Below are positions 1,459 through 63,782 of a stretch of DNA of 64,000 bases, one piece after another. Positions within the stretch are counted from its first letter, which is position 1; each line of letters opens with the position of its first letter. A program made the position numbers and the translations under genes. This DNA comes from Dysidea avara (lineage: Eukaryota; Porifera; Demospongiae; Dictyoceratida; Dysideidae), in contig NC_089276.1 in NCBI RefSeq assembly GCF_963678975.1, positions 3,869,098 to 3,933,097 on the forward strand. Reading direction: 5' to 3'. Under the pieces are notes generated by a model. The model saw nothing but the letters and a program-made list of their open reading frames with translations, did not search any database and was not told the origin of the DNA.

Positions 1459-2844
1459 TTAATAGAGAGTTGAATATGAAAAAATTGCTAAGTCTTTATC
1501 ATACTTTTGTACCAGCTTTCCAATCAGTGCTGGATTGAGTTGGTCCATGGTTGAACGTACATACTCAGCCTTTATCTGGTCCCAATTGTCTACAGGAAAG
1601 TCTGGTATCAAGGTGTCCAGTGAAGTTTCGTTCAAGAGTTCCATTGCGTCCTCTTTCACAGTTTCATGGTGTAGTATATAGTCGTAGCGTAATTCACAAG
1701 GTCTACACAATGTATATAACGGCTGCCAATGTTCATTCATTTTTTCAACATCTTCATCAACGAGATACTGTACAAATTCAGAGAATTTTACATCATCTCC
1801 GACAGGGTTTGGCGGAGCATTGTGACGATATTTCTTAATAATGTTTCTGCCGTAGCCTCGCTGAAACACTTCATTCTTCATATCAAATTTAGTCTTAAAC
1901 ACTACAATGATCCTAAGAAATGGATGTCTTGCTACAACAAATTTTAGGTAAGTATCAATTCGTTTTTTCTGCTCTTCTGGACTCAAGCTAGATAACCAGA
2001 CGTGGTTTGGTTTTTGTTGAGCAACACTTGCGGATACTTTAGAAATACTCTCAGCTGTATTGTGGTCTCCAAGAAAATACAGTACTTTCATCCACGAACT
2101 AGTAGCACTGAGCGGTACCATACAATACAACATCTGATGTTGATCATTCACAACAATTCTTTGACCAAGTGCTTTACGTTGCTCGTCAGTCAAGCTATCC
2201 CAAGTACTGTTGCTGTCTTGGCATGCTGAGGTCATCTCAATTTGACGTGACTTTTGAACTATACTGTAGTGATGCTTGTCAGCCTATAATAAAGAAGATA
2301 TACATGTGTAAAGGTGTAGCAGGAGAAGGTTACTGTTCAGGTGTTCTGTTGACAATTAAGCCTTACTACACTAAACACTTTACCGAGGTAGGCTTCTGAT
2401 GAGACGTTTCATTTTCTGGATCATATTGTTCATACATCAGATTTCTACCTCCAAACACTGAAAATCACAACACAATATTAAACCACATCGTGTACAATTA
2501 TTGATTGTGGGACCTACTGGCGTTCTTTGCAAGTGCCTCTTTGTTCTCTAGATGAATTTTGGTCTCTTCTGCTGCTTGAGCAACAGCTTTTCTCACTTCG
2601 CTACTGATCCTGTCCAGTATATCGCTCTTTTCTTCTGAAGTTATCGGATAAACTGCGTCCCTTTCTGACCATGGATACCGACCCTTAGCTGAGGTAGGTA
2701 ATCGATTAATGTATTTACCCCAGACAACACTAACTTACTTGTTCTACGTAAGGTTCTCTCTGACGAAAACGACACAACTAGAAAACACATCACAGAAACG
2801 ATCACCAACATTTGCAGGAGACGCTTGTTTCTACTCGTAGTCAT
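1459..2844 (-). CDS. Type II carbohydrate sulfotransferase (Sulfotransfer_2 / CHST8-14-like)
   Basis: Four exons on the minus strand join in frame: 2739-2844, 2518-2688, 2384-2457 and 1459-2283, giving about 391 residues, a usual length for the family. Residues 1-30 form a Golgi signal anchor: a basic start (MTTSRNKRLL), then a hydrophobic helix (MLVIVSVMCFLVVSF). The luminal stem is Lys/Glu-rich. The catalytic part begins near residue 150. The PAPS 5'-phosphosulfate loop is YCMVPLSATSSWMKVL and the 3'-phosphate loop is ARHPFLRIIVVFKTKF. Family members transfer sulfate from PAPS to glycans in the Golgi. Two normally conserved residues differ: the Lys of P-K-V-A is Leu (about 175) and the Ser after R-(L/I)-(V/I) is Val (about 244). 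Activity is therefore uncertain. The start was chosen because it directly precedes the membrane anchor. Confidence 0.85.
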
Positions 2845-3223: not shown

Positions 3224-4813
3224 TTATATTGTAAAATTAGAGTAGGTATCATATCGTTGGATTGCTTCAAGTAGGGCTCTGTGAAGGTATTTGTACTGCT
3301 CCTAAAGAGAAAACAATGTAGCAGTAACTTTTGAGCAATTTGATCACATATTGACACAGATCATCAAGTACACTAGGAGGATGTGGGTGGTACATTAGTA
3401 ACATGGAACCATATCAGTAAACACATTTATGAATATACAAGGTAAATGGGGAAACTCTATGTAGTGTATTACATTGTACACAGGTAGCAATATCTTACCA
3501 CTGTTTCAACCATCCCTGCACGTTGTATACGCATTTTCTTCACTGTCTGAAATATGTCGGCCATCTGTTCGGCCTTGAATCGTTCCAAGCTGGACATCAG
3601 GGCACAGAAAGTCCCACTCCGGCCAATTCCATTGCTACAGATTCAAAATACAACAATATTATGATTTCACCCCTCACAGTACTTATAATATTATATAACA
3701 CTTGCTATACACAGCACACATACTTGCAGTGAACTGTGATTGCTCCATTTCCAGTTCTACGTTGTACTCGTTCTATGGATTCCAACATGTCAATTGTGGA
3801 TGATGGGACCTCTGGACAACTATTTAGTGGCCAGTTCTGGAAGTGGAACTGAGTGATGAAACGAGAATCATTTGGCTGTAAAAACAAAGAAGCCAAATCA
3901 CAGAGACAGAGACAATGAAGTGCATGACAAACTCTGACACAAAAATCAAAACACATACTAGCAATCAACAAGCACAGCATGATTGCAATGGTTGTCTGGA
4001 ATACCTTGGAGATTTGACTCAGTTTAAACTGACGTTTAAACCAATCCCCTATTGGTTCATCACATTCCAACATTTCTACAGTGTATGAGCCATACTCCTC
4101 TATACCAGCATCTGGCCAGTACTGGTAGCAGTGTTCCTATGAGGTGATGAATTAATGTTTTAGTTAAACACATTGAGATGGCTCACCTGTCCATTTTCCT
4201 CTAATTCTGAGAGCATCACAATAGCATGGGTCTTAGATTCCCATATCATCTGCCAAAATTCTGTAACAGTTCCTTCCAGTGGTCCTTGTGTTACAATATA
4301 GGCATTTCTTTGACGATATCCCTGAGTATTACATGTGCATATACATTAGAAGCTTAACACATAGGGTTGAACTTACATCAATTTTGGAAGCATTGATGTA
4401 TCCTGTCTTTCCACCAGCACTTGACAAAGCGACATAATTTTCATCAGCTATAAGTGAAACACTTGAAGTCAGATACACATAATACTAGTAGCTAGCACTA
4501 ACGTGCAAGATTAGCTGAATAGCGATTCTTTGCTACGTTCTTTGGAGCAGTGGCTGTAGTATAAGCAAATTTCTTTTCATGCAAAACAGCAGATGTCAGT
4601 GTCTAAATTGGTAGACAATCCCACAATATTATAGATCATAATCGATGTTTACTATACCTTGAATTGTTTACTATACAACGTCTCATTAGTTTTCTTGTCA
4701 ACAGATTCTAGATCTTTCAGACGATCTATAATGTTTTGTATTGGAGCTCCAATTGATGTATCCCCACACATGATTGCCTCCAGCAATACATCATGGATAA
4801 ATGTGTATTGAAC
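3224..4813 (-). CDS. RPTP A phosphatase domain D2 (WPD-less, probably inactive)
   Basis: Exons 4658-4813, 4503-4602, 4377-4447, 4187-4321, 4005-4136, 3724-3875, 3499-3634 and 3224-3301. Motifs: [17 protein letters not shown] in place of the pTyr loop, [45 protein letters not shown] at the WPD position (Asp replaced by Leu), and [16 protein letters not shown] with the catalytic Cys and Arg retained. In family D2 domains loss of the WPD aspartate and of the pTyr-loop Tyr abolishes most activity, and D2 acts in regulation or substrate binding. The protein ends YDTYSNFTI. Confidence 0.9.
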
Positions 4814-7800
4814 CTGTACAGATTCAAAAGTGATGGTGAATGTAAGTTTGTTAATGTTTTACCTGTGTCTGCACCATGTGGTTCCTGCTGTAACGGAGCA
4901 TCCGAACATTGTTAAAAACATCAACATTTCCTTCACGTTTAATCTTCTGTAGTTGAGTATCAATGACAATGAAAGTTCCAGTCCTGCCTACTCCAGCACT
5001 ACAGTGGACCACCATAGGGGTACTGATACGTTTGTGGAACTTTTCTACTCTGTTATGGAATGAGAGCAATGGAGTACCACACTCTGGTACACCATGGTCA
5101 GGCCACACTGTGTAATGAAACTGGTGAACTTCTAAAGTATCATCATCACTATGGGCACTTCCATTGATCTGAGTAGTAACCATATGACTTAGTTATTATG
5201 TTGTCACATTACAAGTACCTTCTCAACAGTGAATACTCTGATAGTGTATTCTGCTAAACATTCTACTGACTTTAATGTTACTTTGTGTTTACCACAAACA
5301 ATGGAGCCATATGATGGCCAGTATTGATGACATTTGATCTACAGAAACAAAAAATGTCATATACTACATCAGTAGCATTATTTGTTATCCCAACCTTGTC
5401 ATCTTCTTTTAGGTTGGTCAGCATCACAATTGTTGAACATCTCTTCTCCCATATCATCTTCCAAAAGTCACCAAATGTGGATGAGACTGGCCCTTGAGTG
5501 GCAATATATTCACAAGACCTGACATATCCCTATAGTTACACAATATGATACACACGTCATGTTGTGTAATATGTGCTTACTTCAATAAATGAAGCATTGA
5601 TATAGTCTGATCCAGTAGATGAGTAGTCGATTCCCAAAGGAACACGACTATGGTCATCTAAAATAGATCAATAATAATATTTTAACAGTACAATAGTTAC
5701 ATACAGGGTAAAATATTGATATATCGATTCTTGGTCCGGTTAACAGATATTTTAGCATTGTGTTGACTAAATGATGACTCTCCTATACCAAGGTCCAGGT
5801 TTTTGTACTCAATGTTAAACTTTTCCTCAATGTTGGAACGACACATTGCAACATGTTGAGCAAAGTCCTCAACCTTAATTGGTGGATGTGCCAGATCATC
5901 TGAAAGAGACAAACGAGTATGATTTACAATATAGTAGTGTGATGCACTACATACCTTCTGGTGGTATTGGTTGTACAACCTCAACCTTTATAGCTTCCTC
6001 AGAGTGTCCGGCAGAGTTAGTAACTTTAACAGTGTAGTTGCCACCATCAAGTATACGAGTGTTTGACATATACAGGGAGCCATCTGATAAAACATGATGA
6101 GTGACCGGGTTGCCGTCTTTAAACCACTGCACTTCAGGAGGAGGATGTCCTCCAGGCTCAATACATAGTGTAGTTGGTTGCCCAGCTGATGTCACAATTT
6201 CAACAGCTTGCGTGTTGATGAAAGGCACTATATTGATTTTTAATTTGCTTCTAAATGCAGGACAATAAGCTACAACTTACAGCTCTCTTTGCGAGGCAAA
6301 CTTGGCTTAGAATCTACAGTAGAAGATTTCTGTGCTTCAGAAGATGCTGACATTTCATGCTGTTTACTAAACATTCTGGTCGGAGCTGTTGTGTCATTAT
6401 TATTAGTGCACATGTATGGCACACTAGTGTGTGGAAGAGAAAAAGAAGACATACATACATACTAACTCAGTCAACTCACAGAAATATGATCAAGATGATC
6501 AACACAAGTATCACTACTACCAGTACTCCAACTACAACACCCACAATTACTCCAACTGGTGTGTCAGATGAATCATCTTCACTTGTGATTTCTGTGTGAG
6601 AGCAAACTAACATATGATCCTAAAACTGATCACTGAACTTACCAAAAGATGATGACAGTTCACTAGTACTGTAAACTGACTCATCCTACAATACACCACA
6701 CGTGTCTTTATACTTGAATCATACTGATATGTAACGTACATGTGCAGAGTATACTCGTACAAAGACCCCATATTTCTGATTGCTTCTCAGTGGCTGATTG
6801 TAATAGCCACCGATAGTCATTCCAGTTCCTAACGTGTGACTGATATTAGCTACTGTACCCCTTATTGCTACATAGTAGTTTAGTTTATTGTCCAAGGCTT
6901 CACGATATGGCAAAAGATTTCCATCTGGGATATCAGTTGTATCATCTGAGAGATCTCCTATTACCACCACCACTTTGTAGTGACTAAAAAGTCCAATGTA
7001 CAATAAACTTGGTACATGTATAACAAACATTATTACCTCATTCTTCCAATGGTTTCATCTACTGGAGGTGTAAATATTACAACAGATTGACTTGATGTAT
7101 CCACCTTTGGACGTTCCCCTCCAACTATTGCTGGAGCTATGATTTATATGTGTACAGTGTAACCAAATTGTACCATAGAATTATACTTTAGTTAGTGTGG
7201 GTGTTCAATTGGGGTTTAACTCACATAATGGGAACTAGAACTGAAACAAACGTTTGATTCACTCAGATATTCGTTCAGTTGTGCGAACACTTCAGCAAGT
7301 ATTTGAGTACAAAGCAATTAAACTTTTAGCAACAATATGTTTGTAATTTTAGGAACTTTATTTATTTCTAATTATATTTCAGTACTGAAAAACAATTGTA
7401 GTATATTTGAAATGGAGAGATCCAAATTAAGTTACATAAATTCAAATATTCAAACTATTTTGAATATTCGCTCATGGTACTATTCAACCTATTCAAATAC
7501 TAATTCGTTTCAGCTCTAATGGGAACACAGTGAGCTCAAGGCTTTGATGCCTAAACAGTTCAAAGATGTGATATGCTTTGACTTGTTATATTGAGTGACA
7601 TGGAGCATTAAATTGTGGGTTTGGGTTTACGGGTTAGGCTAGGTTTCAGATAGTTGTACATGTAGTTGCTAATTTATTAAAGTTTTACAGTGACCAGCAA
7701 TGACGAAAAATCAGTAAAATAATTGCTTGGGCAATGTGTAGATGTGTATTTCTATATCCCACGTGTCGACCATTGAACAGACCATGGAAAAACACAAAGA

Positions 7801-10800
7801 AGACAACTAGATTTAAATAGTACTAAGTACTTAATGTAATGTATTAACTTACTTACTGTCCCCATACACCACATAGCTTCTATCTATGATCACAAAGATT
7901 TTTTGTATCTGTCTCAAGTTACAATATCAACTGTAATTTTGTACTGTCTCAATATTTGCACATTGGAGACTATTGACCTTTCAAGTGATCCATGAAATAA
8001 TTGTGACCAGATTTTACGAAACCAATCCAAATCACACATCAGGCAAAATCAAACCAACACCACCAGTGGATAGCTACATTATCGTACTACCAGATTTGAC
8101 CCTCTGTACTACTCAAACTACTCAGAGCTGGTTTTAACAGATGTCTTTTCTGGGTGATGTGGAGAGCTCGAATGGCGGTTTCTGGCCTAGTGAAGGACCT
8201 GGCTTAGAAAGAATCAGTGGTTTACTGGTGGATGGCCTGATAATGTTGTATGTTGTCCAGACAATGTTTCTGTTGATTTTGTTACATACCAACTAATAAG
8301 GAGCCAGCACAGCCATATGATCTTATGTCTGGACTCAAATCATGCATGGTCTGTCTCCATTTTGGAGTCTATCTCTTGCTCACCCCACCACCCTCACCCT
8401 CCACTCCTTTGTGAGCACTCGTGATACTACTTCACTCATCCAACTGCTCAGATTTTCTATCTTATTTGGTGGGAAACTCTACAAGTAGCTATAGCTAGGT
8501 ACTGGAAGTGGTCTGATATGTAATGGATTAATTTTATGCATCATCTTTTGTGTAAATTTCATATGCATGTTTGCTATCCATGGCAAGTTATGTAGATTTG
8601 AATTCTTTAAAGCCATTTATCTCGAAACTTCTAATGTGTGAATTGGATCATTTTTCCAAATCCAGTCACAATTATGGAACTTTAATTTTAAATGCTTTTA
8701 ATGATTGGGTAAAATTTTGAAGCGGAGTGGGCCTATGTAAGTGCACAGTGGTGGGATTTGAGTAAATAAACAAAGTACCTCAGAAAACACTCTGGACATA
8801 TGGTGTTTTATTTAGTTAAAATCCACTCACAGCTATTGCCTACCTGCAAAACTTGTATTGGTACTGACTGAATTTGATTTAGGTCCTTCTAGGCCCTCTC
8901 CATTAGGATTACGTGTAACAGCACTGACAGAAATGGTATATGATGTTGCAGGATTTAGGTGTATAATTCGGTACTCTAGATCTGTATATACAATCCGGCT
9001 TCTTTTATTGTTATCTGCAGACAAGTAGTACACCTGATAAGGTGAACATGTAAATTATGTCACATAAACTTTACACATACAATATAGTGGTCGATAATTC
9101 CATACTGAACATCTGGAGGAGACCACAAAATCTGTATCCAATTAGTGCCCACTTGTTGGATTGCCAAATGAGTTGGAGCAGATGAAGCTACAGAACAACA
9201 GTATAGCAAATCAAAGTGTAGCGATATGGTATGTTGATATGATTTGAGCATTAATTAACGCTAAATGGAACTGATTAACAATAATTATTGTCAGTAAATA
9301 TCAAGTTAATGCTACATATAGGCAGGGGCTTAGCCAGACTGCTTTGCAGGGCCTATAGCTAGCTACATAACACTATAGCTAGGTAATACAGGGAAGGCAT
9401 GTGAAGTGTACTTGCATGCCAACCTGAGGGGGGGGGTCCTAGGAACAAGCTTCCCAAGGAAATATTATATATATATATATATTTACTAGACTGTTGTATT
9501 AGAGTAACTGTAAGATTAGTTTCATAGTAAAGTACCTTCTGCCATCAAGGAAATTTTTAGCAGTTTATTAGAATAGTTACTATTACCAACTGAATATTTG
9601 CCTGACTGCTGCATTAGGATGACTGTTCTATAAGAGTATCTTGATGTTGATGCCCAAGTTCTGGCTATACCACTGAATAATACACATAGGTGAATAGACT
9701 GCACCATGTGAAACACTGCAGACCTGGTTACACCTTTTGAATTTCACTACCAATCTAGAACAAATTAGCATCTAAATTGAACAATCACCATATTTAAAAA
9801 AAAAAAATCTAAAACTATCAATTCATAACTGCATGTACACTTCATTATCAATTACACTGTTTTGTGTGTCATCAAGATAAAGTTATGGGTCACATCTTAT
9901 TGCCTAGATTACTCTGTTATTTACATGTTTTGCAGCTACAAACAGACTTATAATCGATATGCTATCACAGAGAACACTCATCATCATTAACATACCAACT
10001 AGTGGAGTTTTAACATCACATATCATCTCACTGTCCTCATCAGTAAATCTCACACTATCTTGGCTAAACAACGCTCGTAGCCAGAAACAATAGGTGGAAT
10101 ATGGAGTCAGATCAGTTATAGTATACTCTGTAGCATCACGAGAGATTCCATCAATTTGGTAAGCTTGGTTATTAACTTGGCGTTTGACCATGTCACGCAA
10201 ACTACGGTTAGTATACAATATGTTGTAGTGATCAAGCAGAGGATTGTCAGACATTGAAGGCCACCGGAGGGTAAATGATAGTCCAGTTAGTTCTTTATTT
10301 GATGGCTCCATCACTACTGGTTTTGCACAATCTAAATAAACATACATGTAACAGCTATGCAGTAACATATGTAGTATACAGTATATAGTTCAGAGTTGTA
10401 AGTGGGTCAGTACTGCTGACCTGGTTGACCCATTGACCTGAATAGTACTCCAGATCTGGCCTGGATGTGACCTGGTTCAATTAATACAGAGACATGTGCC
10501 AAGAGTTAGATCTTAAAAGTCCCAAATCCAAAGCTCCTTTACTTAAAGTAGTTACCCTGCATATTTATAGCATAGATTATATATACAGGTTATTGCACTA
10601 CAGGAAGGATCGTCTACAAGAAGAGATAGAAATGAGTAGCTACCAATGAGTATTTTAACACACAATCAATGATATGTGGGTATGGCTCCATGTAAGTCCA
10701 CAGTAACTCACAAATTCCCAGCTTGCTTTAATGCCGCCAGAATGCTTTAATGCCAGAATAGTTGCCTACAAGCAGCAATACTCAATCGTTGTGTTAAGCC

Positions 10801-13800
10801 ATGCTTTCCCACAGACAGAAGCATGCAATTCTGACATGTGGGCATTGCTCCACATATCCTTCAAATAGCTAAACACATTCCTGAATGGAGGGCAAGTTTC
10901 TTGAACTACACTTTATCAAGTTAATTTATGATCTCATCCAGGTCAGACCTTGATATGTAATAAAACAGATGAGACCCACTTGATTCAGACAAAAAGCAAT
11001 CCAAATGACCCAGATAATCCAGATTTCCAGATGCACTCAAGGGCGGATTCAGGGGGGTGCTTGGGGTGCTGAAGCACTCCCCTACAAAATTTTACAATAA
11101 GCAAGCTGAAGCTTTTAGAAGCTGTACTACAGGTGCAGCTGCATTTTATACACATGTATCGGCAATGAAAAGATGGAAAGAGCAAGGGGAATAGCTAATC
11201 GTATCCAAGAATTACTAAAAGGGGTTCAAAATTATACTTTTGAGTAAGTATTACCTTAGAAGTTGCTAAATCCGAAATACTCTAATAGAACAGTCAACTA
11301 CTCTAATAGAACATCCAACATTAAAACTATAATTTTCAAGAAGTTACCAGAGTGTAAGCTGAAATTAACCTATTCTTCTAGACCTGTGCACTGCTACCCT
11401 CACCACTGTACCAAACATCCTGCCATATACCAATCACTTTAGGTAAAAGATTTATACCTTTAATGTACTATAAATTGTATAAAACATCATTAATTGAAAA
11501 TCTATTCTGAAAATAACCTTTTCTGTCAAATAGTAGTTTGTTAGGCTCTGCTACAAACTTGATTGTTGGGTTGAAATGCTTCTCACAAGTAAAACAGTAG
11601 TCTTGTATAATAGTGAATTTCTTAGCTTTTATAAAGTTCACAAGGCCGCAACATCTGAGAACTGTTCGTTTTTGTTTCTCTTGCTTGATCAAATCCCATG
11701 CTACATTTGTATAAATCTAGCAGCTTTGGAGTTTGCACTATCGAATCCCTTGAAGCTCAACTTTAAGCTTAAATGATATTGCAGCATTTATGTTGTCATG
11801 ATCATTGTGTGCTAAAAAGGAGTTAGTTGTGGCCAAAAACTAGTTGTATTTGTAGACTATAGTTGTAAAACAATTATAATGATGGATGGATCCATCATTT
11901 TAAAAGTTAGATTGAAAAAGCAACCTGCACTTCAGAACAGTGGCTACATATGAAGTAGATCCAATCCTGTGTTTTAAATATTCTCCTTGACCTTACATTC
12001 AATTAACTATACTGTCTATACACTCTGTATTCTCTTTGACAAGCCACTATTAGTGCTGAAACGAATAGCAATTTTACTATTCGAATAGTTGTTAACAAAA
12101 TGACTGAATATTCAATTATTCTTTAAGCTTATACTTCTATTGAATAAGCACTGAAACCTTTTGTGAGGGAGCAAGGTACAGCCTAAGAGCTATTTCTATA
12201 TTTTCTAAAATTGAATTTTTACATCATAGATGCATCACTTCATTCACAATTTTAAGTTTCAAGGCTGGCTTTTCCATCTGAATAAAGTGTACAAAGTGCT
12301 AACGATTATTCGAATAGTGTGTTAATGAATCGAATAGTGTCATGCCGACCGAATAGTCAAATAACCGAATAATCGTTTCAGCACTAGCCACTATTATACA
12401 TTTTCAAATCCAATAACAAGAAACAATGTATAGTTCTGTTTTTTAAATTAAAATTGCTTCCAACTGAACTCATTCAAATTAAAATTACTTTCACCTGAAC
12501 TCATTTATAATAGCTTCTAGATTCAATCTTGTGATAGCCATTTTCCAAAAATTTCCAGGGGGTCCGGGAGTATATATGCCACCAGATCTACACCCCCTCT
12601 AGCTGGAGAATTATATACAGCTGGGTGCAAATGCACTCCATACATTGGTGAGTCAGTCTACTTGCCCTCTCCACTCCCACTTTCCCTCTCCACTCCCACT
12701 TACCCTCTCTACCGTTTGGACAGCTAGTGTAGTTTGAGCCATGAGACTGTAAATTATGCTATTCTTCAAAACACTAAATTTGATCATGTGCAGCTGCCGA
12801 TACCCATATGTTTCCACTACTAGTTCTGTAAGATGTTAGTCTAAGATTGAATTTTAGCTACTGGCTGTGCCCTTTAGTTATATTGACAAGCTGTAGGGGA
12901 ATAATGGTATCACATAAACAAAGTGACATCATTTTTCACTCAAAATTACTACCATATTCAATCCCAGTAGGCCAAATTTGCAAAATATTCCTGTGAGGGC
13001 ATACCCCCAGGCCCCCTAGATAGAGCACGCTCCGCATGCTGAGTGTGCTTCTCACACTAGTTGTATCAACTATCTTGCTACATATATAAATGTCCATGTT
13101 AGCACCCCTCCTTCTGAAATCCTAGATCTGCCCCTGGCACTGATATAGTTATGTGTAACTGAGCTTATGTGATATATGTAACATGTAAGAGTTAAAGCAC
13201 TGCCACGATGTGGTTCGAGTTTGCAAAATGAACGCTCCAAACAAGACGACAAGACAGCACTTAAATCAGTTAAAGCACTGCTACACTTGTACAATATGAG
13301 AATAAAAGCACTCAGGCATGGTCTCAATTCTAATATAGCAATAATGCTCTACGATATATCGGTAATACCGTTTATCGTGATAAATTATCATAACTGATTA
13401 TCATACCGTGACAGCATTTAATAACCGATATATCGAAATACCAGTATATTGATGAATACTGGTATAGGGTTGTTTTTAACCCAGCCTTTGGGATTTATTT
13501 ATCCGATCTGTTGATGGTTTAGCAGACACACCCTAAACAAAAACTTGAGGTTGTCACATTACAACACATGCTTACTTGTACTGAACTATTATATATTTTT
13601 GATTTTTGGGATGATACCGCTTCATACTAGACCCAAGAAATGATGCAATAGTTACAATAACAAGCTAACTATATACTGATATACCGCGATATTTTCCTGT
13701 TACTAATACCATGTATTCAAATTTCAATACCGCCGAGCTCTATATAGCAGTTGGCTTTGCTTTGTGCTATATTAGTCTCTCACCCATGCCCTTGTGCTTT

Positions 13801-16800
13801 TATTTTCATATTGCGTGCGAGGCGGTGCTTTAACTAAAATATTAAAAACTTTGCGTGGGAGGATCAAAGCAAAAAAAATTTGTTCTATATTAGCCATACA
13901 AACACAAGTGTTCTATATTGGGCAGTTATAGAATACTTTATAGACCCACAGTTCTATATATCAGGTAGTTATAGAACTGCCAGGCCTATTTGCAGGTTAA
14001 TAGCCTGCTTTGAGTGAGCAATCGCTCGCTCTTGGCCAGTACAACCAATCACCCAAGCCAGTCTAGGCTGATAGCCTGTACTGCATTGGTTGACTAGTCA
14101 GTCCAACCAGTAAGAGGAGAATCACTGGATTTAATTTATAAACAAACTATGATGGTTCCTTGTGGTCAGCAGAAGTGAACGTTCTTACTACATTTTGTTC
14201 ATATAAATGGATGAGTCCTAGGAATATCACAGAAATATGCTTTACCAACTTTTAGTCATTGAGAAGACGGACTAGACTTACAAAACGATTAATGCAGGCA
14301 CAGCACAGTGCAATACAGGCGAAATACAGATGCAATGCCTATTCTACCAATGATAACAACACTACTCTGTGAGTTTCTAATTGTTTTGTGCGTACCTCAA
14401 GTTGACAGTTCTCTGTACCAGATAAAGCACTGCCTTTTGCTCGTGCTATACGGAAATATAGCACTCAAAGAGTGGTCTCAAGACGAAATATAGCACTCGG
14501 CTTTGCCTCGTGCTATATTTGTCTCTCTCCCACTCTTTTCGTGCTATGTTTCCCGTATAGCACGAGCGAAAGGCAGTGTTTTATCTATTATAGAACCTTT
14601 GTGTTCTGTATGGCTTTTATAGAACTGTTTTTTGTTTTGATCCTCCCACGCAAGATATATTTTATAGTTATAACACGCTTATGAGGAATATAACTAAAAT
14701 ATACGCACGATTTATGAGAACGCGCAGCGCTCGAGTGAGAGTGTGTATATTTAGTCATATCCCGAGTAATCGTGTTATAACTGTTATATTCTACACCCCA
14801 GTAGATGAAAACGATTATAGATTGTAAGTTATAGTGAAACAGTACCTCCTGGAGATGGAAATCAACAGAAATTCTTGATGGATCAGACGTTTTACACTTT
14901 TAACGGTGCCACGCCCACATAGTCGCGATCAGTGAGTTATCCACGAAGGAGACAAGAGTTCATCGAAACTTGTTCCAGTTTCTGAGGTGAATAATTGTTG
15001 GCTGATTTAGGTGCTTGTTATAAGAGAGTTGTTTACCGTTTGGATAAGGATTTTGCGGAATGTGTCTTTACACCATATATGGTAAGTGTAGCTACAAAGC
15101 GTGGTATATCAGTTATATACCACAGCGTGGCGCTTTTGATCTCAACCACAGGTGGGGTATATATATACATATAGCCCAGTCACACATAAATTTATATATA
15201 ATAGCATGCGCATGTCTATCTGATGTATAAACTGCAACGTTTAACTGTGGTACTAAGAATTACACATACCTTGACACATTCTAGACATAACTGAAATACT
15301 AACAGAAGAGCTGGTGTAGACATTCCTCCTATAAACAGCTGCTACAGATATATTGTACATAGTGTTTGGTATGATACTATCAATAGTAACAGAGTTATCA
15401 TCTCCATGATAAGTTATTGATCTGTTGTGATTCTTAAAAGTGGCAGTAATCAAATATCCTGTAATCATTGATCCATACAATGGAGGGTCCATCCACTGTA
15501 TTGTTACTGACACATCAGTGGTTGTTGTTACTGTCAAGTTTCTGATGGCTGTGTTTTCTGAAATTTAATAATATACCATCAATTTAATCTCTTGTAGTAT
15601 AGTGCAAAGTCCCAAAGCATATTGTTCATGTGAATAACACCCAAGCATAAGATCAAATATTGAACCTAAATCTATGAATGAGCTACGCACCAGATAAAGG
15701 CTAACTAATGACCTACGTACTAAATTGTAATAGTCACCAATTCACAATTCTTTTATGACAATTTTACATTTATTTGACATACCTGAATTAGCAATTTGGA
15801 TTTTAATGAAATCTGACTTGCGACCTTCACTAATTTCATTTACTGCTGCAACAGAAAATTCATAGAAATAATCAGGCATTAGTCCATCAATTACAACAAA
15901 AGTATCATCTTTAACTTCTACTGGTGATATTCTACACTTTCTACATCTCACAACATAATGCGTTATAGGACTGTTATTGTCATCTGGTTTGCTCCATGTA
16001 ATGTTAACTGCTGTCAAATTAGTCACTGAAATAGCAATATCTCTGACACGATCAGGTTTGTCTACATACATAATAAAAAGCATACCATTATGAAAGTATT
16101 AAAAACTACCTTGAACCATAACTTCTATAGACTTTGTAGCCACTGAAAATGGTTCCCCAATAGCTCTGCTGTTACTGCTGGCATTACAAGTGTATGTTCC
16201 ATTATCTTTCAGTGTTGCAGAAGTTACTGAATGAGTTATTTGATCAAATCCTTCTGGGTTTTCTTGGATTTTGTCACCATCTTTGTACAGTACAATTGTT
16301 GGTGATGGAACACCATTTGCTGAGCATAATAAATTAAAAGGCTCTTCAACTTTAACCGGATCCACCTCAGCAAACTCAACAATTGTCGGAGCATCTATTA
16401 ATGTAGATAAGTAAGACAAGTTTAGTTAACAACACAAAGCTGACCACTATAAGAATCTTCGAACATTACAGTCAATAGAAAGCATGCACACAGCAAAACA
16501 TTAGATCTGATGGTACAGACATCATGAGCTCGTGGCATGTAAATGTGCAAATAGTACCTCCAAGGAAAAAATTACCGTGAAATTAATTGCACTATATTTG
16601 TGTAAAAGTCATTAATCAGTACGTAATCAACATAGCAAAATTTTAATTGCTGAAGTAGCTCATGATTACTTGAAGCATGTGGTTTAAGTCTAACTAATTA
16701 GTGATACAATACTCACATACAATAATACAATTCCCTTACATTCCACTATCACATTAGTGGTCACTTTATATTCAGTATCACCATCACTGACTGAGCAGGA

Positions 16801-19800
16801 ATATAGTCCTCTGTCGTCATCCCTGATATTGTATAAAGACAAAATCGAATAAAATTCACCATCTTTTTCAAAATTAGTTGTTGATAAAGACACATTGTTG
16901 TTGTCATTTCTGAACCAAGTAATATCAACTTGTTGATGAGGAGTTATTGCTACATTACAGGAGATTTGTGCATCCAATCCTCTTATTGTATAGTACTCTG
17001 AGTTAGTATCATTGATGATGATGTCTATAAAATTGTGTATACATGAAGTAAGCTTATTATTTGACAAGGAAAATAATGTAATGTACAGTACCGCTCAAAT
17101 GCAATGTCGTTTTACGGGACTGTGAGCGATTAAAAACTTGCTAATTAAAGGGCGTGGCACCCATTTCACTTACAGTTAACCATCCCAAACAAAACAGGAT
17201 GAATACTTGCAAGTGAAATGGGTGCCACGTCCTTTCATTAGCAAGTTTTTTAATTGCTCACATTCTTGTGAGACGACGTTGCATTTGAGCGGTACATACT
17301 GTAGCACCAACTTTTTGTGAATTAACAACACAGTAAAAATAGTCTTCTAAAATCTCAGGGTACACCCTAAATGATTTAGAACAGCACACCTATTGATGAG
17401 ATACTTGTTACTTGTTGTGTGCTTTGAACACTGCTATTGGTCATCCGACCAGGATATACTTGGTCCGATTTGTCATTAAGAGATAACAAAAGCCACATCA
17501 CTCAGCTTGTGATTTTTATGTAGGATTGCACCATCAAAAAAACTAAAAACAGTTTCTCAGGAACACATCAGTCCTTTAATTTGAATGCTGCATGACAGAG
17601 ATTTCAAAGGTGAACTTATATGTATATATATATATATATTACAAGATTTAGTTAAACATTATGATAGAGCTATGTATACAACACTATTAGTTACAAAACA
17701 TTTTGTGATCAATCCTTCCAGCTTTACACCTTGTAATACATAAATTATATTGCAAATACAACAGCTTACTTGATACAATCAACTGAGCTGGATTAGAAGT
17801 GTTCTTATCATTCCAATGGTTAGTCACAACACATTGATATGTGCCACTATCCCCTTCTCTGACTGATGAGATGGTAAACACTTTATCAGTGGCACCATCT
17901 ATGTTAGTTCCATTAATCCCCCACTGGTATTTGAATTGATCTGATCTGTAGCCATCTGCTTCACAAGTGAATTGTACCATGTCATACACTGCTACTGAAT
18001 GTACAGGTGGAATCATAGAGACTTCAATTAATCCTATCAATACAAAATATGTGCTTTACATATGTATCAAGATGCTCACAAGGTATAATAATTTGTTTAT
18101 GCCAAGGATTCCTGTGTGCCTCAGCATAAATAACAAGGAAAAATACTATATGTATTATCAGTGAAATATGGAGTGTAAGTTCTAATGTTCAGCAGTTGCT
18201 TAAATGAAATAAATTTTATATCATAATGAAATGACAACTTTCCAAGTCATAAATATCACTGATTTTAGGTTGAGGTATATATTGTAAGCATATCTACTGT
18301 TAGCCTGCTACATGACACATTTACACATGCATCAAGAGTTACTATGTACTATGCATAGCGTACATGAGTGATAGCTAGAGATGTACTAATAACAAAATAA
18401 ATGAACATATGAAATAGTTTAATATGCCAAATATATAGCACCAGCAGAAATGCTTACCACTAATTGTGATATTGGCATCACTGGATGTTACCGATCCTGC
18501 ACTGTTTACAGCTATGCATCTGTAGTCTCCAGTATCATTCTTAGTGACATTTACAACTGTAAGGTTATTTCCACTAGGTGAAATAGTCTTAAAGGAATCA
18601 CTGATATTGACTCCATCTTTTTGCCAGTATACATAACCGTCCCCTTCCACCACACAACCAATTGTAATACGATCACTTGTAGCTGCCACAACGTAATCAG
18701 AACTGCTGGGGTGTTCCAATATCACTGGTAGATCTATATAAACAACAGAATGTTAAGCAATGGACAAATGTACATAGATCAACAAAAATTGTGATTGAAT
18801 TTGACAAAACCTGGCTTTGACGCACAAAGCTTCATTAGGAGATATGGTGATTTTAAGTAATCATTGTGTAGTAACTTCCCAGTGCCTACAGCTGTGCAAA
18901 CAAAATTTGCAACAATTATTCATCTATTTACTAGCTATCACTGTGTGGGTGTATAAGTTTCTGATACCCAAAACATGCCCTGTTTTGGACAGCTTTTTTC
19001 GAGCAGGTAATAATATCACAGGTGGTAGTAATAGGGGCGGTGGGCTTAATATAGGAGTATAAAATGGAGCAAGAAGACGAATGGAATCCAGAGGCAAAGT
19101 TTGGGTCCTCTATGGCCCTCAAATCACTCCAAATTGACTGAGAACACTATTGGCAAGCTCTCTGTGAAATCCCAGCTCACTACACACCATTACAACAAAG
19201 CCATGGCCATTTAATGGCACCAATCTTCCACTCGTGGCTTTGACAGGGTCAGAAGAAAGCTGCTGCAGAAACCAGACTTGCCAGTCCTGAAGGAAATACA
19301 GAGTGGAATATTATAGTGTATTAGACCAGTAATCCATTTCTGGTAAAAATGTAAGTTTGATTTTGTGTGTATGGAAGCCGGGTTATATGAAATCTGGTCA
19401 CAATTAACCATTGAGCTGGGAAGTCATTATGAATTATTTTAAGAAAAAAAGGAAGCAGATATATCATACAGTACGATAGTAACTGTATAGTAGGGACCAC
19501 AAAATAATATCACCCAAAAACCAGCCTCAATTTTCCCTGACGACGATGAGGCAATATTAGATAGGTAAAACTAAGCCCAAACAAGCTTTCAGATTGACCC
19601 GAAACGCTTTCAGATTGACCCGAAACGCTTTCAACAAGTTGCTACAGAATTTAAAAAAAAATTATTCTACAGAATTTCTACTGACTGAGTAAGTAACTGA
19701 CTGACTGATGCCTGCAGACAAGCGTAACTTGATAACGGCTAAGGCTATGGGCTTGATTTTTTCACTATTCGATGTCGCTTCGGCCCGACAGGTGCCTTTT

Positions 19801-22800
19801 GGCATACCGCATTATGTACAATGCATTCTTCGTGGATTTACCAGTGTCCTCCTTTGCGTCCCATTCATCTTTGCTGACAGCGAAAGGTTGATTTGGCGGT
19901 AGCACGTGATGGCTTCCCTTCGTAATGGAAATCGTCCGTATTTTTCATAGTGGCTATTTTGATTGCAGAGGTGCTTTTCAAACAGCTTGATTTGAAATGC
20001 TGTGTAACGGGTTAAACATAACTGACAACGAAGTGTAATGGATACTTCACTTTTCAGACGATGATTGATATAGCTGGGGTGCGCGGTGCCATTTCAGATG
20101 CGGTATGCATGGGTTCACCAGTCATAATAAAATTACTTACAAAAAAAGTTAACAAACAAGTACACGAAAAAATTTGGAATTTTCAACTAGAATAGAACCA
20201 TAGCACATCGATAAAAAGTACTGAAACAAGTTGGAGTAGTCCATGATATTAAATCACAGTAAAACAATAAGAAGTGGTATATCCCTACTGTGCATTTCCA
20301 TTATGGTGTCTTGAGCACAGTAGGGAAATAACACTTCTTATTGTTTTACGGTGATTTAATATCATGGACTACTCCAACTTGTTTCAGTACTTTTTATTGA
20401 TGTGCTATGGTCCCTACTCTAGTTGAAAATTCCAAATTTTTTTCGTGTGGTATAACTGCACAAAAACAGCCAAGCTGTGAAAAAGGGTGTGGCCTTAAAA
20501 GCCTGGGTGAAAAAAGTTGTGATATCAAAGGTGGTGGCCAACAAATGGCTGCAATGATGTTACACTGTAATACTAATAAATTTTACAGCCATTATTAAAT
20601 TTTATTAGCATTAACATCATTGCAGCCATTTGTTGGCCGCCACCTTTGATTTCACAACTTCTTTCACCAAAGCTTTTTAAGGCCGCACCTTTTTTCACAG
20701 CTTGGCTGTTTTTGTGCAGATATCACTTCTATTTGTAATTGTAAGTTCCAAAGTCAGTCTATGGTTGACCTTGATAATTCCTTTTAACATTTTCCCTTTA
20801 CTACAGGAATCATCAAAGACTGCGTGGCTATATGAAGGACTGAAATGAGATGAATTTTGAAGGTACGTACACCCCAATGATACGTAGCTGGGCAGATTCG
20901 ACTAGGATTGGGAGGAAGCTTCCACTGCAGAAATGGTTAATCATACCATTCAAGCACTATGGAGCTATGGATACATGAAAACTTTTTTATTTAGATTTTT
21001 TTATTATTATTCCTAGAGTTACCAGCAACCCTTGCCACCACCCTGACATCACAGAACTATATGACACTACTCCTTCTGAAGAGAGACAAGGAGAGCAAAT
21101 CTTCTGTAAATACAGCACTGAGCAGCATGACCCATACCACCCTTTAATGTTGAAAATACAAGTGGGGTAAAAGAACCCATCTCAATCTCATTGTTCATAC
21201 TTCTGTTTTTCTCATGTTCAAAACGTCGATATGAGGATAGCTACTTGGGTAGCACATACGATATGAAGATGCAACAGCCTAGTAACTTTGACATAAAAAA
21301 ACACCTTAAGAGATGTTTGCTTACCTCCCCAGAATCCTGAAGCATAAATGTCTACACGAACTCCATCTTCATTATTAGCTGTTGCATATCGAAGGCTGGG
21401 TCTTACCTGTAAAGAGGCTACAACAATAACTGTTGCAGCTTCTTTCGTACTGTTCCTTCCCTTGTGGTAAATTGATAATAAACAGATGCATGAAAATGGT
21501 GTTTTCTGGTTCTGTAAAATGAGTATTTCGCCTGCCTACACTGGCTGTATTTGGCCACACGACATGGCTCTATACATTCATAATTTTTGTAGAATGTTCT
21601 AGAACAATCTAGATTTTCCGTTGGTAGATCTACTATGAAATTATGAACTTGACTACTGAGTAGAAATAAAGTGAGATGATCAACTGTGATAACAGTGGCT
21701 CAGTGGTAAAGGATTTGGGTGTCTAGTATTGAGATTCCTGGTTCAAATGTTGGTCAGTAACTTTTTCCCGATAATTTTTGTGCACCTTTTTACCCCGCGG
21801 TGACTGTTCTATTAGATCATTTTGACCCCACAATTTACAGTTGTTTGGTTTTTGCCTTGTAACTCTGTAGCTGTCAATGCGATTTCTTTTAAACCACAAA
21901 AGGTTGAGCTATGATGATTAACCTATCATATATGCATACTGATTTTTAACACCATAAGTGGTTTACCCTGTAGGCATGACAACAAGTCGGCCTTTTTAAA
22001 TGCAAATAACCATCCATAGCTCTATGAATATTAGTCAGATTTGCACCAAACTTGGTACATGATTGTGCTGCAATACATTCTTAAAGTGTACCAAAGCTCA
22101 AGACAATTGAGCTACACATTTGTATTTTATAATGGTTTTTGTAAAGTGTGTGAAAAGAATAATCTAAGCTCCCCGAGTCCCCTGAACAAAGAAAAAAAAA
22201 CTGAAGAAATCAAGCCAAATTTTGAAGGCTTATATTTCACGACTGCATTAAGCAATCTTGCTAAAACTTGGTATGTGGGGTCCTGTAGGTGGAGGGCATT
22301 TGCAGTATAAAAATGATTCTGAAGGGAACACAGAGCTACATATGCGTGAAAATCGCATTTTGTTTCTTCCTGTAAATATACTCATGGTGTGGTGTGCTGG
22401 CTTTCTTGGCCGCACAACATACTACTGTGTGTCTTGATGTAGCCTTACTTCTACAATGAGTATGTATGTACATAATTATTCAAATTTTGCGAGGTATACA
22501 CATAGTTATGACAGCAACTACTGCGAGGAGAAAGTTTATGTTGTGTGAAATTGGATGGGACTTTTACGAATATGTACACAACTAACAACACACAGCTAGT
22601 ACATACATGCATGCATACATACATGTGTAGGCACACATGTACATCCGCACGAGCACACACATGTACGCGTGCTTGCACACATGCGCACACGCACAAACAT
22701 ACTTGGGGTAGGTGATGGACTACTAGTGATAATCATGGATGTGACAGATGCTGTGTCTGTTGATACTGTAAAAATAAATAATATATATTAAAATCTGTTA

Positions 22801-43000: not shown

Positions 43001-44533
43001 CATGAGAAACACCTCCGCAATCAAGCTACAGAATTATGGATGTTTCTTGTTACAAATGTGATGGGCCAAGAAACCATTGCCAAACTACCCATAAATCAAC
43101 ACCTACAAGGTAGTGGAGAGGAACACAAGGGAGGACTGCTGCATAAGGCAAAAGTCTTGGGTCAAAGTAATATTGAATCATAGTCGACATAAGGTGTTGG
43201 TGAAACTTTTTTTAAGGTCACTGTGAGTTCACTTATTAATACTGCCAAGTTGCTTTGAAGGAAAAATGAAGCTGGTTTTGGGTGACACTTTTGGAAGCTT
43301 CTTCATGATCTCTACTATACTCATTTGTATCTATGTACACACTACATACTTGCAGTGAACTGTGATTGCTCCGTTTCCAGTGCTACACTGCACTTGTTCT
43401 ATTGAATCCAACATGTCAATTGTGGATGATGGGTCCTCTGGACAACTATCCAGTGACCAGTTCTGGAAGTGGAACTGAGTGATGACACGAGAATCCATTG
43501 GCTGTATGAATAAAGAAACTATTGGGAATACGATCACATTGATAATACCACACATGTAAAATTTTGACTGAAAGGTTAAGCTGAGGTAAAACAATTGCTA
43601 CATGTCACTGGAATTATGTTGCAGAAAGACAAATACAAAGGACTGAATGGAAACTTATATAACAAAAGTTGAACAAGTAGTCCGAAGTTGACTAATGATT
43701 ATTAGTACAAAAATTGGTTGACAATTCTACAAACACATGTACCTTGGAGATTTGGCTAAGTTTAAACTGACATTTAAACCAATCTCCTATTGGTTTATCA
43801 CATTCCAACACTTCTACAGTGTATGAGCCATACTCCTCTACACCAGCATCTGGCCAGTACTGGTAGCAGTGCTCCTATGAGGTGATGAATTATGTTTTAG
43901 TTAAACTCATTGAGATGGCTCACTTGTCCATTTTCCTCTAATGCCGAGAGCATCACAATAGCATGGGTCTTAGATTCCCATATCATCTGCCAAAATTCTG
44001 TAACAGTTCCTTTCAGTGGTCCTTGTGTTACAATGTAGGCATTGTTGTGACGATATCCCTGAGCATTACATGTGTACAATAAAATTAAGATTGGTTGAAC
44101 TTACATCAATGTAGGAAGCATTGATATATCCTGATTTACCATAAGTGCTTGGCAAGCCAACATAATTTACATCAGCTGTAAGGAAATTTCTTAAGTGAGA
44201 CACACCTAATTAATATACTTACGTGCAAGATTAACTGAATAGCGATTTTTTAGAACATTCTTTGGATCAGTAGCAATGGTATAAGTAAATATCTTTTCAC
44301 CTAAAATGCCAGATGTAAATATCTATTGGAAATATAGCAGATTAAATCAGTCTTCACTGTTATGTAATAGTACATACTTTGAACTGTTTGCTATACAAAG
44401 TTTCATTAGTATGTTCATCAACAGACTCTAGCTCCTTTAGCTGAGTAATAACATTCTGTACTGGAGCTTCAATTGAAGTGTCCCCACAAGTGATTGCCTC
44501 CAACAGCACATCATGGAGAAATACGTACTGATT
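34011..44533 (-). CDS. RPTP B phosphatase domain D2, last two exons displaced by an 8.4 kb intron
   Basis: Exons 44378-44533, 44223-44322, 44105-44175, 43924-44058, 43743-43874 and 43350-43501 lie close together. The last two, 34816-34951 and 34011-34088, lie 8.4 kb further on. The junction inside the catalytic loop has matching phase ([12 protein letters not shown]). At the WPD position the sequence is [13 protein letters not shown], so both Pro and Asp are lost. The Thr after GRSG is Ala. D2 is therefore probably non-catalytic, like its gene A counterpart. If the long intron is not spliced, the protein loses the catalytic-loop Arg and the C-terminal helix. Confidence 0.8.
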
Positions 44534-47500
44534 CTACATAGCAACAGATTAACAGTGATTGTCAATTGTAAAGTATTTGCATTTTACCTGTGTTTGCACC
44601 ATGTGATTTCTACAGTAACGGAGCATCCGAACATTGTTAAAAATGTCAACATATCCTTCACATCTTATTTTCTGTAGTTGAGTATCAATAACAATGAAGG
44701 TTCCAGACCTGCCCACTCCAGCACTACAGTGAACCACCATAGGAGTATCACCACGCTTGTGGAACTTTTCTACTCTCTTATGGAATGAGAGCAACGGAGT
44801 ACCATCTTTTGGTATGCCATGATCAGGCCACACTGTGTAATGAAACTGGTGGACTTCTACAATATTTTCGGAAGAACTTGCAATTTCCTGAACAAAAGTA
44901 CGAAGATTTTGATCTATTAACACTGCATTAAAAAGTACCTTCTTAACATGAAATACTCTGATAGTATATTCTACCAGAGGTTCTACTGATTTTAGTGTTA
45001 CTCTGTATGCACCATAAACAGTACTACCATATGCTGGCCAGTATTGATGGCACTTAGTCTGTAAAAGAAGTACGTCAAATTTAAACCAATCTATTTTATC
45101 ACTAACCGTTCTGCCTTCATTAAGATTAGTGAGCATCACTATTGTTGAGCATCTCCTCTCCCAAATCATCTTCCAAAAATCACCAAAAGTAGATGGCAAT
45201 GGGCCTTGAGTGGCTATGTACTCACAAGGCCTAGCATATCCCTACAGTTACACAACACGGTATACACATCACCATGTACATTATTCTTTTACATCAATAA
45301 AAGAAGCATTGATATAATCTGATCCTGTAGATGTGTAGTCAATTTCAAGAGGAACACGAGTATGATCATCTGAAAGAATATATTAGATTGACTGTTTTTC
45401 TAAAACAAGCACATACAGGGCAAAATACTGATGTATCGATTCTTTGCTTTGTTAACAAGTAGATTAGCATTGTGGTGAGTAAAAGCCCACTCTGGCATGT
45501 TCAAGCCTTTAAACTCATTGTAAAAACCAATCCCCATATTTGAACGACATATTGTAACATGTTGGACAAACTCTTCCAGTTTGACTGGTGGATGGGCTGG
45601 ATCACCTATAGAAAAAACAATCAACTTATCAAGCTTGGTTTATACCCCACAGAACAGGTACACACAGTGGGACCCTCTCATCTCACTTACAAACATGAAT
45701 AATGCATTTTAAACACGATAATTTTTTGGGATTATGGTGCAAGGAAGGAACTAAAAGGATGAGTGGATTGTATGCTACTAATAAGCAGTAACTACATTTG
45801 TGACTAGATTTTGGAAAAATGATCCAAATCACACATTAGAAGTTTTGAGATAAACGGTACAGAATTCAAGTCAGTATATCTTGCCAAGGATAACAAGCAC
45901 ACATATGAAATTCACACAACAGATGCATCAATCCATTACCTTTCAAACCACTTCCAGTACTTGTAGCTGCTTGTACAGGTTCCCACCAAATAAGATAGAA
46001 AATCCTAGCAGTCGGACAAACAAAATAGTATCAAGAGGGGGTGGAGGGATGGGGAAAAGATAGACTTCAAAATGGAGGCACACCACCATTGAAGTTCAGG
46101 CACGAGATTACAGGGTAGTGCTGGCTTCTTAGTGGCTGACATGGAGCAAAATCAACAGAAAAAACAACTGGCCAACCATCCAACAATACACCACTGATTC
46201 TGGCCAAGCTAGGTCCTTAACAAGAGCAAAACTGCCATTTGAACTTGCCATACCACCCAGAAAAGACGTCTTGTAAAACTAGTTTGAATAATGAATAATT
46301 TATTTAATATCCATTTGGTTCCACACGGGGTATATACTTTGAGATACATATACATGAAATTGACAAGGAGAAAACACCCTGACCGCCTGGCAGACTCCTG
46401 TAAGCGTTCGAGCATTAATCGGATAGCAGCAGGTTCGAGGCTGCTTAGGTCCAGTCATGGATTTTTTCTCCTTTCTCCACCTTTTCAAACACACTTTCTG
46501 TAACAACTTTAAACAGGCAGGTGTCCTACAGACCTTAAGCCTTAATAAAAAAAAATAAAAAAAATAATGTTAAGGGTCAAGACTAGTAGTATGATAGTGT
46601 AGCTATCCACTGGTGGTGTTGGTTTGATTTTGCCTGATGTGCGATTTGGATTGGTTTTGTAAATCTGGTCACATTATTAAAATCTAAGAAATTTATATTT
46701 CATACCTTTTGGTGGTATTGGTTGTGACACCTTAACATTAATATCTTCTTCACAATATCCAGAAGAGTTGGTGAGCTTAACAGTATAGCTACCACTATTG
46801 TGAGTTTGAGCATTGGCTATATACAGAGAACCATCTGATAAAGTGCAATGCTCAACCATATGATTGTCCTTGAACCACTCCACAGTAGGAGGAGGATGTC
46901 CTCCAGACTCAATGCAAAGTGTGGTTGGTTGACCAGCTGATGTCACAACTTCAGTAACTGTCACATCAATGTATGGCACTGTAGTGGCAATATGGAAAAC
47001 GATAAGTGTCCTACTGTAAATCTAAAAGTTACAACTTACAGCTTCCTTCATGAGATGATTCTGTTTCGCAAACTAACTGTATTCCATATGTCTCAGACAC
47101 TGAAGATGACCGTGAAGAAGACTGTGCTTCAGGAATTGTTGCCATAGGACTCTTTGTAAGTTCTAGCATCCGAATGTTGGAAAAGTGTGGTTGTGTAGTT
47201 GATGACTGTGCAGCAGAACGTGTCAGTACTTCAACTTTTTTTCTGTGGCTTTTTTTTGGAGGAATTATGATCAAAACAATTAGAATTGTAAACAGTAATA
47301 CCAGAACTGCAACTATACAACCCACAATGACTCCCAGTGGTACACCTTCGTCATCATCATCAGATGAGTCAGTAGACTCAGCACTTGTAATTTCTGTACT
47401 GAAGAATAATTTAAAATACAAGTAGAGTAACAGTGCTTACCAAAAGAAGATAACAAGTGACTGGTTGTATAAACAGTTTCATTCTACAAAGACCACACAT

Positions 47501-62407: not shown

Positions 62408-63782
62408 CTAAAATATACACAATAATCATATTGCGAACCATTCATAATAGGGATCGACTATTTTTTAAAAAAAATCCTAATACAACACACAAAAAAACAA
62501 AAACAAAAATACCACCTAGGAAAACACTCTTCAACTAAAAAAGAACCGTCTGGTGGATCTTTGCAAGAAGCTTATAGTATCAAATTAAAAGAAAACAATA
62601 AGTGCATTTTAGAAATTGATCATAATTATTTTAATTAAAGACACACAGTAGTGTGTTGTGTGGCCAAGAAAGCCGGCGTGCCACACCATGAGTAGGGGTT
62701 GAAAGGATTCCATGGAACCTCTCTTTTTTTTTTCCCTTCGGCATAAGAGAAACTCATACAAGCTTTCTATTACTGAGTCAACAAAGAGTAACCTTCTTAA
62801 AGTATTCTTGCTATTTTATAGCATTCCACAACTGTTTAAACAACTCTATTTACTCAGCAACCTTGTTCTGAAATACTTCCACTCTTTATCTACACAGCAC
62901 AGGCATTTCATGGTAACTTTCGTCATTTCATGGTAACTGCATGTGATTTAGTGTGCATTATTTAGAATTCATACTATTTTGTTGGTGATTATGACTGCTA
63001 TAAAGTTCCCTTCTTTGATAACACACTTGGAACCAAAGACTAAATTATTATTATTATAATTTTACAATGCTATACTGAATCTATATAGATAGCTAGTCAG
63101 TTTACTATGTAACGATTGGCTGCATGCAGCTCAGTAATAGACTATATGTGTGGTCCATTTATTGAACAAAATGTAATCAATTTGCATTGAATAGCAGTGT
63201 GCCCGAGAATTTTTGATGGTGAACGACTATTGTAAACCACATACAAAAGTACCGGTAACAAATGCGGCTTGAGCTATAACTCGCCACTAACACTACGAAC
63301 TCGGCTCTTCTTTCCAGCTACTATTCTATACAGGTAGAGGAATCTATTGATCTGCAAAAAGTACTGGTAAGTAGTCTATTTTCTGAGATTCGTATTTTTC
63401 TATGTACATTTATCACAGTCGTTCACCATTGTGACGTACTAAAACATAACAAAACATGTTAAAATATCACATGTTTTTAGGATGTTTTTGGCAGTGCATA
63501 TAGTCTATTTGGTGTTGAAAAATTAAGTTTACATTACAAAGATTACGATAATATCTTGCTGCTAAAATAACATATTAACAAGCGTGGCTGCTGAATATGT
63601 GAATTTTAACTACAGTTAATTCTCATTCTGCACAAGAAGGGGTCAATGATTTAGCCATGGCCAGTAAGCAGAGCCAGCAAGTAGCATGAAGTAAATTTTG
63701 ATGGCAAATGAGAGAGAGATAGCCAGTCAAAACATGTGCACTCTGAGAGTGATAAGTTACAGAGTGCTTAGAATGTGATGCT
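62408..63782. other. Upstream flank of RPTP B Ig exons with repeat fragments
   Basis: An inverted family 3 end lies at 62637-62695. A foldback (arms GATGGTGAACGACTATTGT at 63217 and ACAGTCGTTCACCATTGTG at 63415) spans 63215-63435. No further Ig or signal-peptide exon was recognised, so the 5' end of gene B is probably beyond the window. Confidence 0.45.

Follow-up and report, generated by a model that had tools for sequence, protein, structure and literature searches.

The known classes of receptor protein tyrosine phosphatase (RPTP) are distinguished mainly by their ectodomains. Those that most resemble the receptors described here are LAR, PTPRS, and PTPRD, the R2A RPTPs, which have an ectodomain of immunoglobulin (Ig) and fibronectin type III (FN3) domains, one transmembrane segment (TM), and tandem phosphatase domains, D1 and D2. 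The Ig domains of Robo, which are I-sets, are extracellular, while titin, a filament protein, has cytosolic I-sets that are free of disulfides. Ig domains in general are mostly extracellular modules, and those in the cytosol often lack the canonical disulfide. Work on sponge PTPs was reportedly done by Ono et al. in 1999. A sponge receptor phosphatase with FN3 repeats belongs to the R3 RPTPs, and no cytosolic Ig is mentioned for it in the available part of the paper on this receptor (PMC5336234).

We have analyzed a window of 64,000 nucleotides from Dysidea avara, a keratose demosponge, in which two RPTP genes, here called A and B, each encode an Ig domain between the TM and D1. The features of both genes are collected in Table 1.

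Table 1. Coordinates of the features of genes A and B in the window.
Feature	Position	Strand	Basis or remark
Gene A, extracellular exons, four Ig and three FN3-type, phase-1 introns	9996..18733	-	Pfam on P0123
Gene A, FN3 and membrane-proximal extracellular exons, five	6643..9187	-	
Gene A, TM exon	6480..6591	-	In-frame GT-AG exon; only strong hydrophobic peak of the C-terminal model
Gene A, juxtamembrane linker exon, Ser/Thr rich	6281..6423	-	GT-AG, in frame
Gene A, cytosolic Ig exon, 273 nt, phase 1-1	5955..6227	-	Pfam I-set; phases; present in P0123
Gene A, phosphatase D1, six exons	4658..5899	-	In-frame model; Pfam Y_phosphatase
Gene A, phosphatase D2 and stop, seven exons	3224..4602	-	HCNNGIGRSG kept; NWPLN replaces WPD Asp
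Gene B, TM and juxtamembrane exon	47040..47398	-	
Gene B, cytosolic Ig exon, 273 nt, phase 1-1	46706..46978	-	
Gene B, phosphatase D1, six exons	44378..45605	-	In-frame GT-AG exons
Gene B, phosphatase D2, first part	43350..44322	-	Resumes at 34951-34816 past a long intron; last exon near 34085

Organization of the two genes

From the FN3 exons to the last exon of gene A, all of the borders are GT-AG, and the frame is open until the stop. The spliced model is 100% identical to P0123, a 2419-residue D. avara protein annotated as 'receptor-type tyrosine-protein phosphatase S-like isoform X2', over the region searched (residues 975-1372 of the 1671-residue query). The order of the domains is four Ig, FN3 domains, TM, linker, cytosolic Ig, D1, and D2, and Pfam finds five Ig_3 and four fn3 stretches in P0123. 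This protein has the features of a receptor-type classical PTP, with a leader-like hydrophobic N-terminus, one strong TM, and a D1 with WPDHG. The single strong hydrophobic segment in the 901-residue C-terminal model of gene A is that encoded by the exon at 6591-6480, and a hydropathy scan found no second TM after the Ig in gene A or gene B. D1 of gene A retains KNRY and WPDHG. Despite the HCNNGIGRSG motif, its D2 is probably weak or inactive, judging from the NWPLN sequence at the WPD site.

Gene B lies at higher coordinates than gene A and is oriented the same way, which suggests that they are tandem paralogues. We considered that gene B might be a broken copy, since the automatic model truncated its membrane-proximal exon, yet the frame continues, and this idea was rejected. 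An intron of about 8.4 kb (34952-43349, minus strand) splits two D2 exons of gene B, and the corresponding spacing in gene A is 89 bases. At 61767-62441 (minus strand), there are two extracellular-type Ig exons with Cys pairs, which belong to gene B or to another gene.

Several other features of the window were observed. The ectodomain of gene A contains a long array of 96-bp repeats at 24066-25673, with a unit of 32 residues rich in Ser, Thr, and Pro; both strands of the array are open, and P0123 contains the encoded repeat as well. It is perhaps a mucin-like stalk. A sulfotransferase gene (1459-2283, minus strand; Pfam Sulfotransfer_2, E 3.9e-44) is located just downstream of gene A, with a possible further exon at 2597-2683. 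Two self-complementary stretches of about 290-330 bases, at 20162-20448 and 49360-49687, are 89-91% matched and have related copies elsewhere in the window; they are perhaps small hairpin-type transposable elements.

The cytosolic Ig exon

An earlier sequence-only reading of the window had placed an in-frame Ig exon after the TM exon of gene A. Its coordinates, 5955..6227, proved to be exact. The exon (6227-5955, minus strand) has the borders ag|TGCC..GAAG|gt, has 1-1 phases, is open in the frame that joins its neighbors, and ends adjoining D1; on the plus strand, the translation is interrupted by several stops. An automatic gene finder had put the acceptor at 6206, which we dropped, as gene B and P0123 support 6227. 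The translated exon matches Pfam I-set with E 3.5e-14 (53.1 bits, cut-off 23.7) and Ig_3 with E 1e-10. A hidden Markov model (HMM) of seven cytosolic Igs, which includes the gene A sequence, finds the gene A ORF with E 8.1e-39, while 22,500 shuffled ORFs gave no match to it at E ≤ 10. The Pfam scores and the shuffles rule out a chance ORF. The best PDB sequence matches of the Ig are Robo, titin, and neurofascin. Like the extracellular Ig exons of gene A, the exon is bounded by phase-1 introns.

The same reading had attributed to gene B a 273-nt exon with the same Val, and this was confirmed: the exon at 46978-46706 encodes an I-set (E 2.6e-14) with the sequence GSYTVKL and is 62% identical to that of gene A in protein and 72% in DNA (197/273). 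As only 13 of the 41 aligned residues of the TM-Ig linker are identical between the two genes, the Ig has been kept while the linker drifts. The dN/dS for the Ig is 0.35 (bootstrap 0.17-0.62; 90 codons), and that for D1 and D2 is 0.23 (325 codons) and 0.28 (242 codons), respectively. At the level of codon substitution, then, the cytosolic Ig is under purifying selection between genes A and B.

The cysteines required a partial revision. The Ig of gene A had been described as having the first Cys and the core Trp, with Val replacing the strand-F Cys. The Trp and the Val (GNYTVKV) are as described. However, the Cys (TTLCIEPGG) lies one residue before the canonical strand-B Cys of the relatives (TTLMCEASG in P0001) in the ungapped alignment. 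The HMMER alignment to Robo, contrary to this register, pairs Cys with Cys by a one-residue gap. We prefer the register that has no gap in this stretch of the 16-row alignment, in which the canonical strand-B position is Ile. The canonical B and F sites are then Ile and Val in both genes, which leaves no B-F disulfide. Thus, the loss of the disulfide is real, but genes A and B have lost the two canonical cysteines rather than one, while Corticium retains both.

This alignment consists of 15 cytosolic Igs from 14 database proteins (one Geodia protein gives two near-copies) and that of gene B. P0002 and P0006 were counted as demosponge-type from their position in that branch of the D1+D2 tree described below. 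At the strand-F site, all 13 demosponge-type rows have Val, Ile, or Leu, and the three Corticium rows have Cys. At the canonical strand-B position, there is Cys in P0001, P0002, P0004, and the three Corticium rows; the remaining 10 rows have Ile or Val there. As a control, we used only the HMM-found extracellular Igs of P0123, P0126, P0127, P0047, and P0087; the Cys pair is present in 24/24 of these stretches, 14 of them from one P0126 array, and the Trp pattern in all except one (23).

Occurrence in other sponges

The sample for comparison was 242 proteins among the matches listed in length-limited searches (7263, 2, and 7983 matches at E ≤ 0.001). D1 was matched in 240 of these, with a TM found before D1 in 215 and none found in 25. 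An Ig lies between the TM and D1 in 10 of the 215 (P0001, P0002, P0006, P0033, P0047, P0087, P0123, P0126, P0127, and P0158). The second half of P0124 has the same order, giving 11 database proteins, and in P0003, P0004, and P0007 an Ig precedes D1 in models that have no TM. The named sources are D. avara, Halichondria panicea, Amphimedon queenslandica, Geodia barretti, and Corticium candelabrum; P0087, with an Em-type gene identifier, is presumably from Ephydatia muelleri. Geodia and Halichondria are Demospongiae, and Corticium belongs to the Homoscleromorpha. Three more Dysidea proteins, P0126, P0127, and P0003, carry an Ig ahead of D1. The domains listed for P0127 also include a Calx-beta domain (PF03160), which means that the cytosolic Ig-D1-D2 unit occurs with more than one kind of ectodomain. 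The proposal of an RPTP class with an intracellular Ig is thus supported in that other genes of Dysidea and other sponges share the TM-Ig-D1-D2 order, and the TM-Ig-PTP order in sponges is well supported.

No protein with a non-sponge name has this order among the 240 PTP proteins listed, a sample limited by similarity and length rather than a census. P0046 and P0048 were flagged merely because a TM was not found, and were set aside because their Ig ends more than 500 residues before D1. In P0076 and P0113, the linker is long and shows no Ig match. The one hexactinellid protein, P0012 of Oopsacas, has no Ig, which as a single protein excludes nothing for its class. A region-limited Ig search returned two proteins, neither a phosphatase; it missed known relatives and so is uninformative on absence. 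The Geodia and Corticium models P0158 and P0124 have more than one receptor phosphatase unit per protein, perhaps because neighboring genes were fused in annotation.

Among the literature matches listed, no title or opening of an abstract describes a cytosolic Ig between a TM and a PTP, and the word 'phosphatase' is absent from the main text of the Dysidea genome paper (PMC12909245). An RPTP subclass with this order is therefore apparently undescribed: the genes are public under RPTP names, with their architecture unremarked in the literature searched.

Predicted structure and juxtamembrane geometry

AlphaFold2 gave a poor model of the window Ig from a two-sequence alignment (pLDDT 48.7). For the Dysidea paralogue P0003, the mean pLDDT is 89.9 and the pTM is 0.89, from an alignment of 20 whole proteins, of which only eight have the Ig. 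The Ig region (about residues 11-100) consists of strands and one short helical turn, with block pLDDT of 90-96, and the pLDDT of the Ig-D1 junction is about 91. P0003 is thus confidently predicted to fold as Ig-D1-D2, and its pTM is no proof of a fixed angle between Ig and D1. In Foldseek, the top 16 PDB rows for this model are the tandem domains of PTPRS, LAR, RPTP alpha, and epsilon (TM-score by target, 0.91-0.96), and no listed PDB row spans the whole model (best TM-score by query, 0.79). The BFVD matches are mostly PTPs, with phage Ig-like domain proteins at ranks 46 and 50 (over 107 and 110 columns).

The gap between the TM and D1 has a median of 49 residues (range 8-140) in the 205 Ig-less receptors, which are mostly LAR-type animal isoforms and not independent, compared with 133-193 in the 10 with the Ig (143 in P0123). 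The Ig has therefore been added to an otherwise ordinary juxtamembrane segment, which it lengthens by about 90 residues. In genes A and B, it ends a few residues before the HPP that starts D1. Of the nine rows in the larger demosponge clade, six have a short PP[EKS]..HP junction, namely gene A, gene B, P0001, P0002, P0004, and P0006; P0126, P0127, and P0003 do not have it. In Corticium, 34-66 residues separate the Ig from D1, so close coupling of the two is not general.

Phylogeny

The D1 tree has 37 rows and the D1+D2 tree has 29, with P0003, P0007, P0047, gene B, the second Geodia receptor, Mercenaria, Ciona, and mouse PTPRS left out of the latter as long-branch, partial, or near-identical. 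In the D1+D2 tree, a single branch separates the 11 Ig-bearing rows from the rest; its support is 87/78, below the tool's mark, and it occurs in 84% of 200 bootstrap trees. By contrast, the D1 tree requires two changes, and 0/200 bootstrap trees have one. Mercenaria and the second Geodia receptor, both without the Ig, sat among the Ig rows in the D1 tree, and their removal favors the one-branch result. From these trees, a single origin of the sponge class is plausible at most. In the D1+D2 tree, the nine LAR-type rows form their own branch (100/100), and the sponge Ig rows join two Ig-less coral rows (100/99). In this tree, Corticium joins Geodia and Ephydatia (88/75), in which case the strand-F Cys would have been lost more than once.

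An HMM was also built from six cytosolic Igs. The held-out P0127, P0002, P0004, P0047, and P0033 are in its top ten together with the training rows, although P0033, at 43.2 bits, barely exceeds the Igs ranked after it, which are those of a hemicentin-like protein (42.9) and of fish receptors (42.4). The Ig domains of Geodia, Ephydatia, and P0124 rank outside the top 70 matches, so for these lineages common descent of the Ig itself is no more than possible.

Discussion

The exon order, reading frame, Ig family, single TM, two PTP domains, and recurrence in sponges are established from the sequences. The best PDB matches of the tandem D1-D2 are PTPRS (2fh7, E 9.5e-156; 4bpc), with LAR close (1lar, 3.6e-152). 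This similarity to the R2A RPTPs does not extend to the tree, in which there is no grouping with bilaterian LAR. Nor does P0123 have their short juxtamembrane segment without a folded domain, and gene A has in addition a mucin-like repeat and the cytosolic Ig. The R3 RPTPs have one PTP domain, whereas there are two here. The top PDB match of the Ig is Robo2 (6iaa; whole-sequence E 5.3e-26 over several domains), but the F Cys is present in the Robo rows aligned over strand F. The aligned titin rows have Leu or Val at that position, as the sponge Ig has Val, but the sponge Ig is located in a single-pass receptor ahead of a catalytic domain.

We propose that these genes form a sponge LAR-like RPTP subclass in which the cytosolic I-set Ig folds and serves for docking and positioning, and we would put the chances of this proposal at about even. 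The earlier reading suggested that the Ig may gate D1 or bind the cytoskeleton, and both of these roles are putative. The exon would have originated among the Ig exons of extracellular type with 1-1 phases, and would then have been placed so that its domain faces the cytosol. The disulfide may have been lost in demosponges because it is unreliable in the reducing cytosol. The disulfide-independent Ig would bind a cytosolic partner or another receptor next to D1, and clustering of the ectodomains could thereby be relayed to the phosphatase. Clustering of LAR through D1-D1 contacts is reported, in the available part of the paper, to lower activity (PMC6954185). For the history of the class, we tentatively suggest, at somewhat less than even chances, that in an early RPTP class an extracellular-type Ig exon moved to the cytosolic side and became a control or docking module for D1, that Corticium represents the state before the loss, and that demosponges lost the F Cys and then the B Cys.

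The main rival to docking is direct gating of D1 by the Ig. The short PP[EKS]..HP junction in six of nine rows of the larger demosponge clade and the high junction pLDDT in the P0003 model are what one might expect from it. However, the motif is not in P0126, P0127, or P0003, and the Corticium junction is longer. Furthermore, the available part of PMC2638020 argues against the inhibitory wedge model for most RPTPs, leaving juxtamembrane control open. We regard direct gating as unlikely. If the Ig were instead a passive rigid spacer that raises D1 off the membrane, the roughly 90 residues that it adds to a juxtamembrane segment of ordinary length would be explained, and its sequence would be unimportant. 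This is distinctly improbable, given the purifying selection on the Ig between genes A and B, its better conservation than the linker, and the identity of T12, S13, and T18 in 7/7 and of G15, Q16, P17, and T19 in 6/7 sampled rows of the larger demosponge clade.

An exon of 273 nt with symmetric 1-1 phases can be skipped without a frameshift, and P0123 is named isoform X2, in a cluster of five member sequences, so the exon could be an alternatively spliced cassette that switches the receptor between Ig and Ig-less forms. It is, however, included in P0123 and in the relatives read, and we give the cassette very little credence. Finally, the order could be an artefact of annotation or assembly, or the Ig could truly be extracellular. 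Gene A itself has no basic stop-transfer stretch after the TM, but inspection by eye shows basic residues there in 9 of 10 relatives, as would suit an Ig that faces the cytosol. The order is shared by two genes in the window and by proteins of other species, and no TM follows the Ig; thus, an artefact or an extracellular Ig is scarcely credible.

A docking and positioning module remains our preferred reading. A folded Ig between the membrane and D1, in two classes of sponges, would be a new way of wiring adhesion to tyrosine dephosphorylation in early animals. It would provide a natural experiment on juxtamembrane-side control of RPTP activity, and an example of how a module of extracellular type can adapt to the cytosol through loss of its disulfide.
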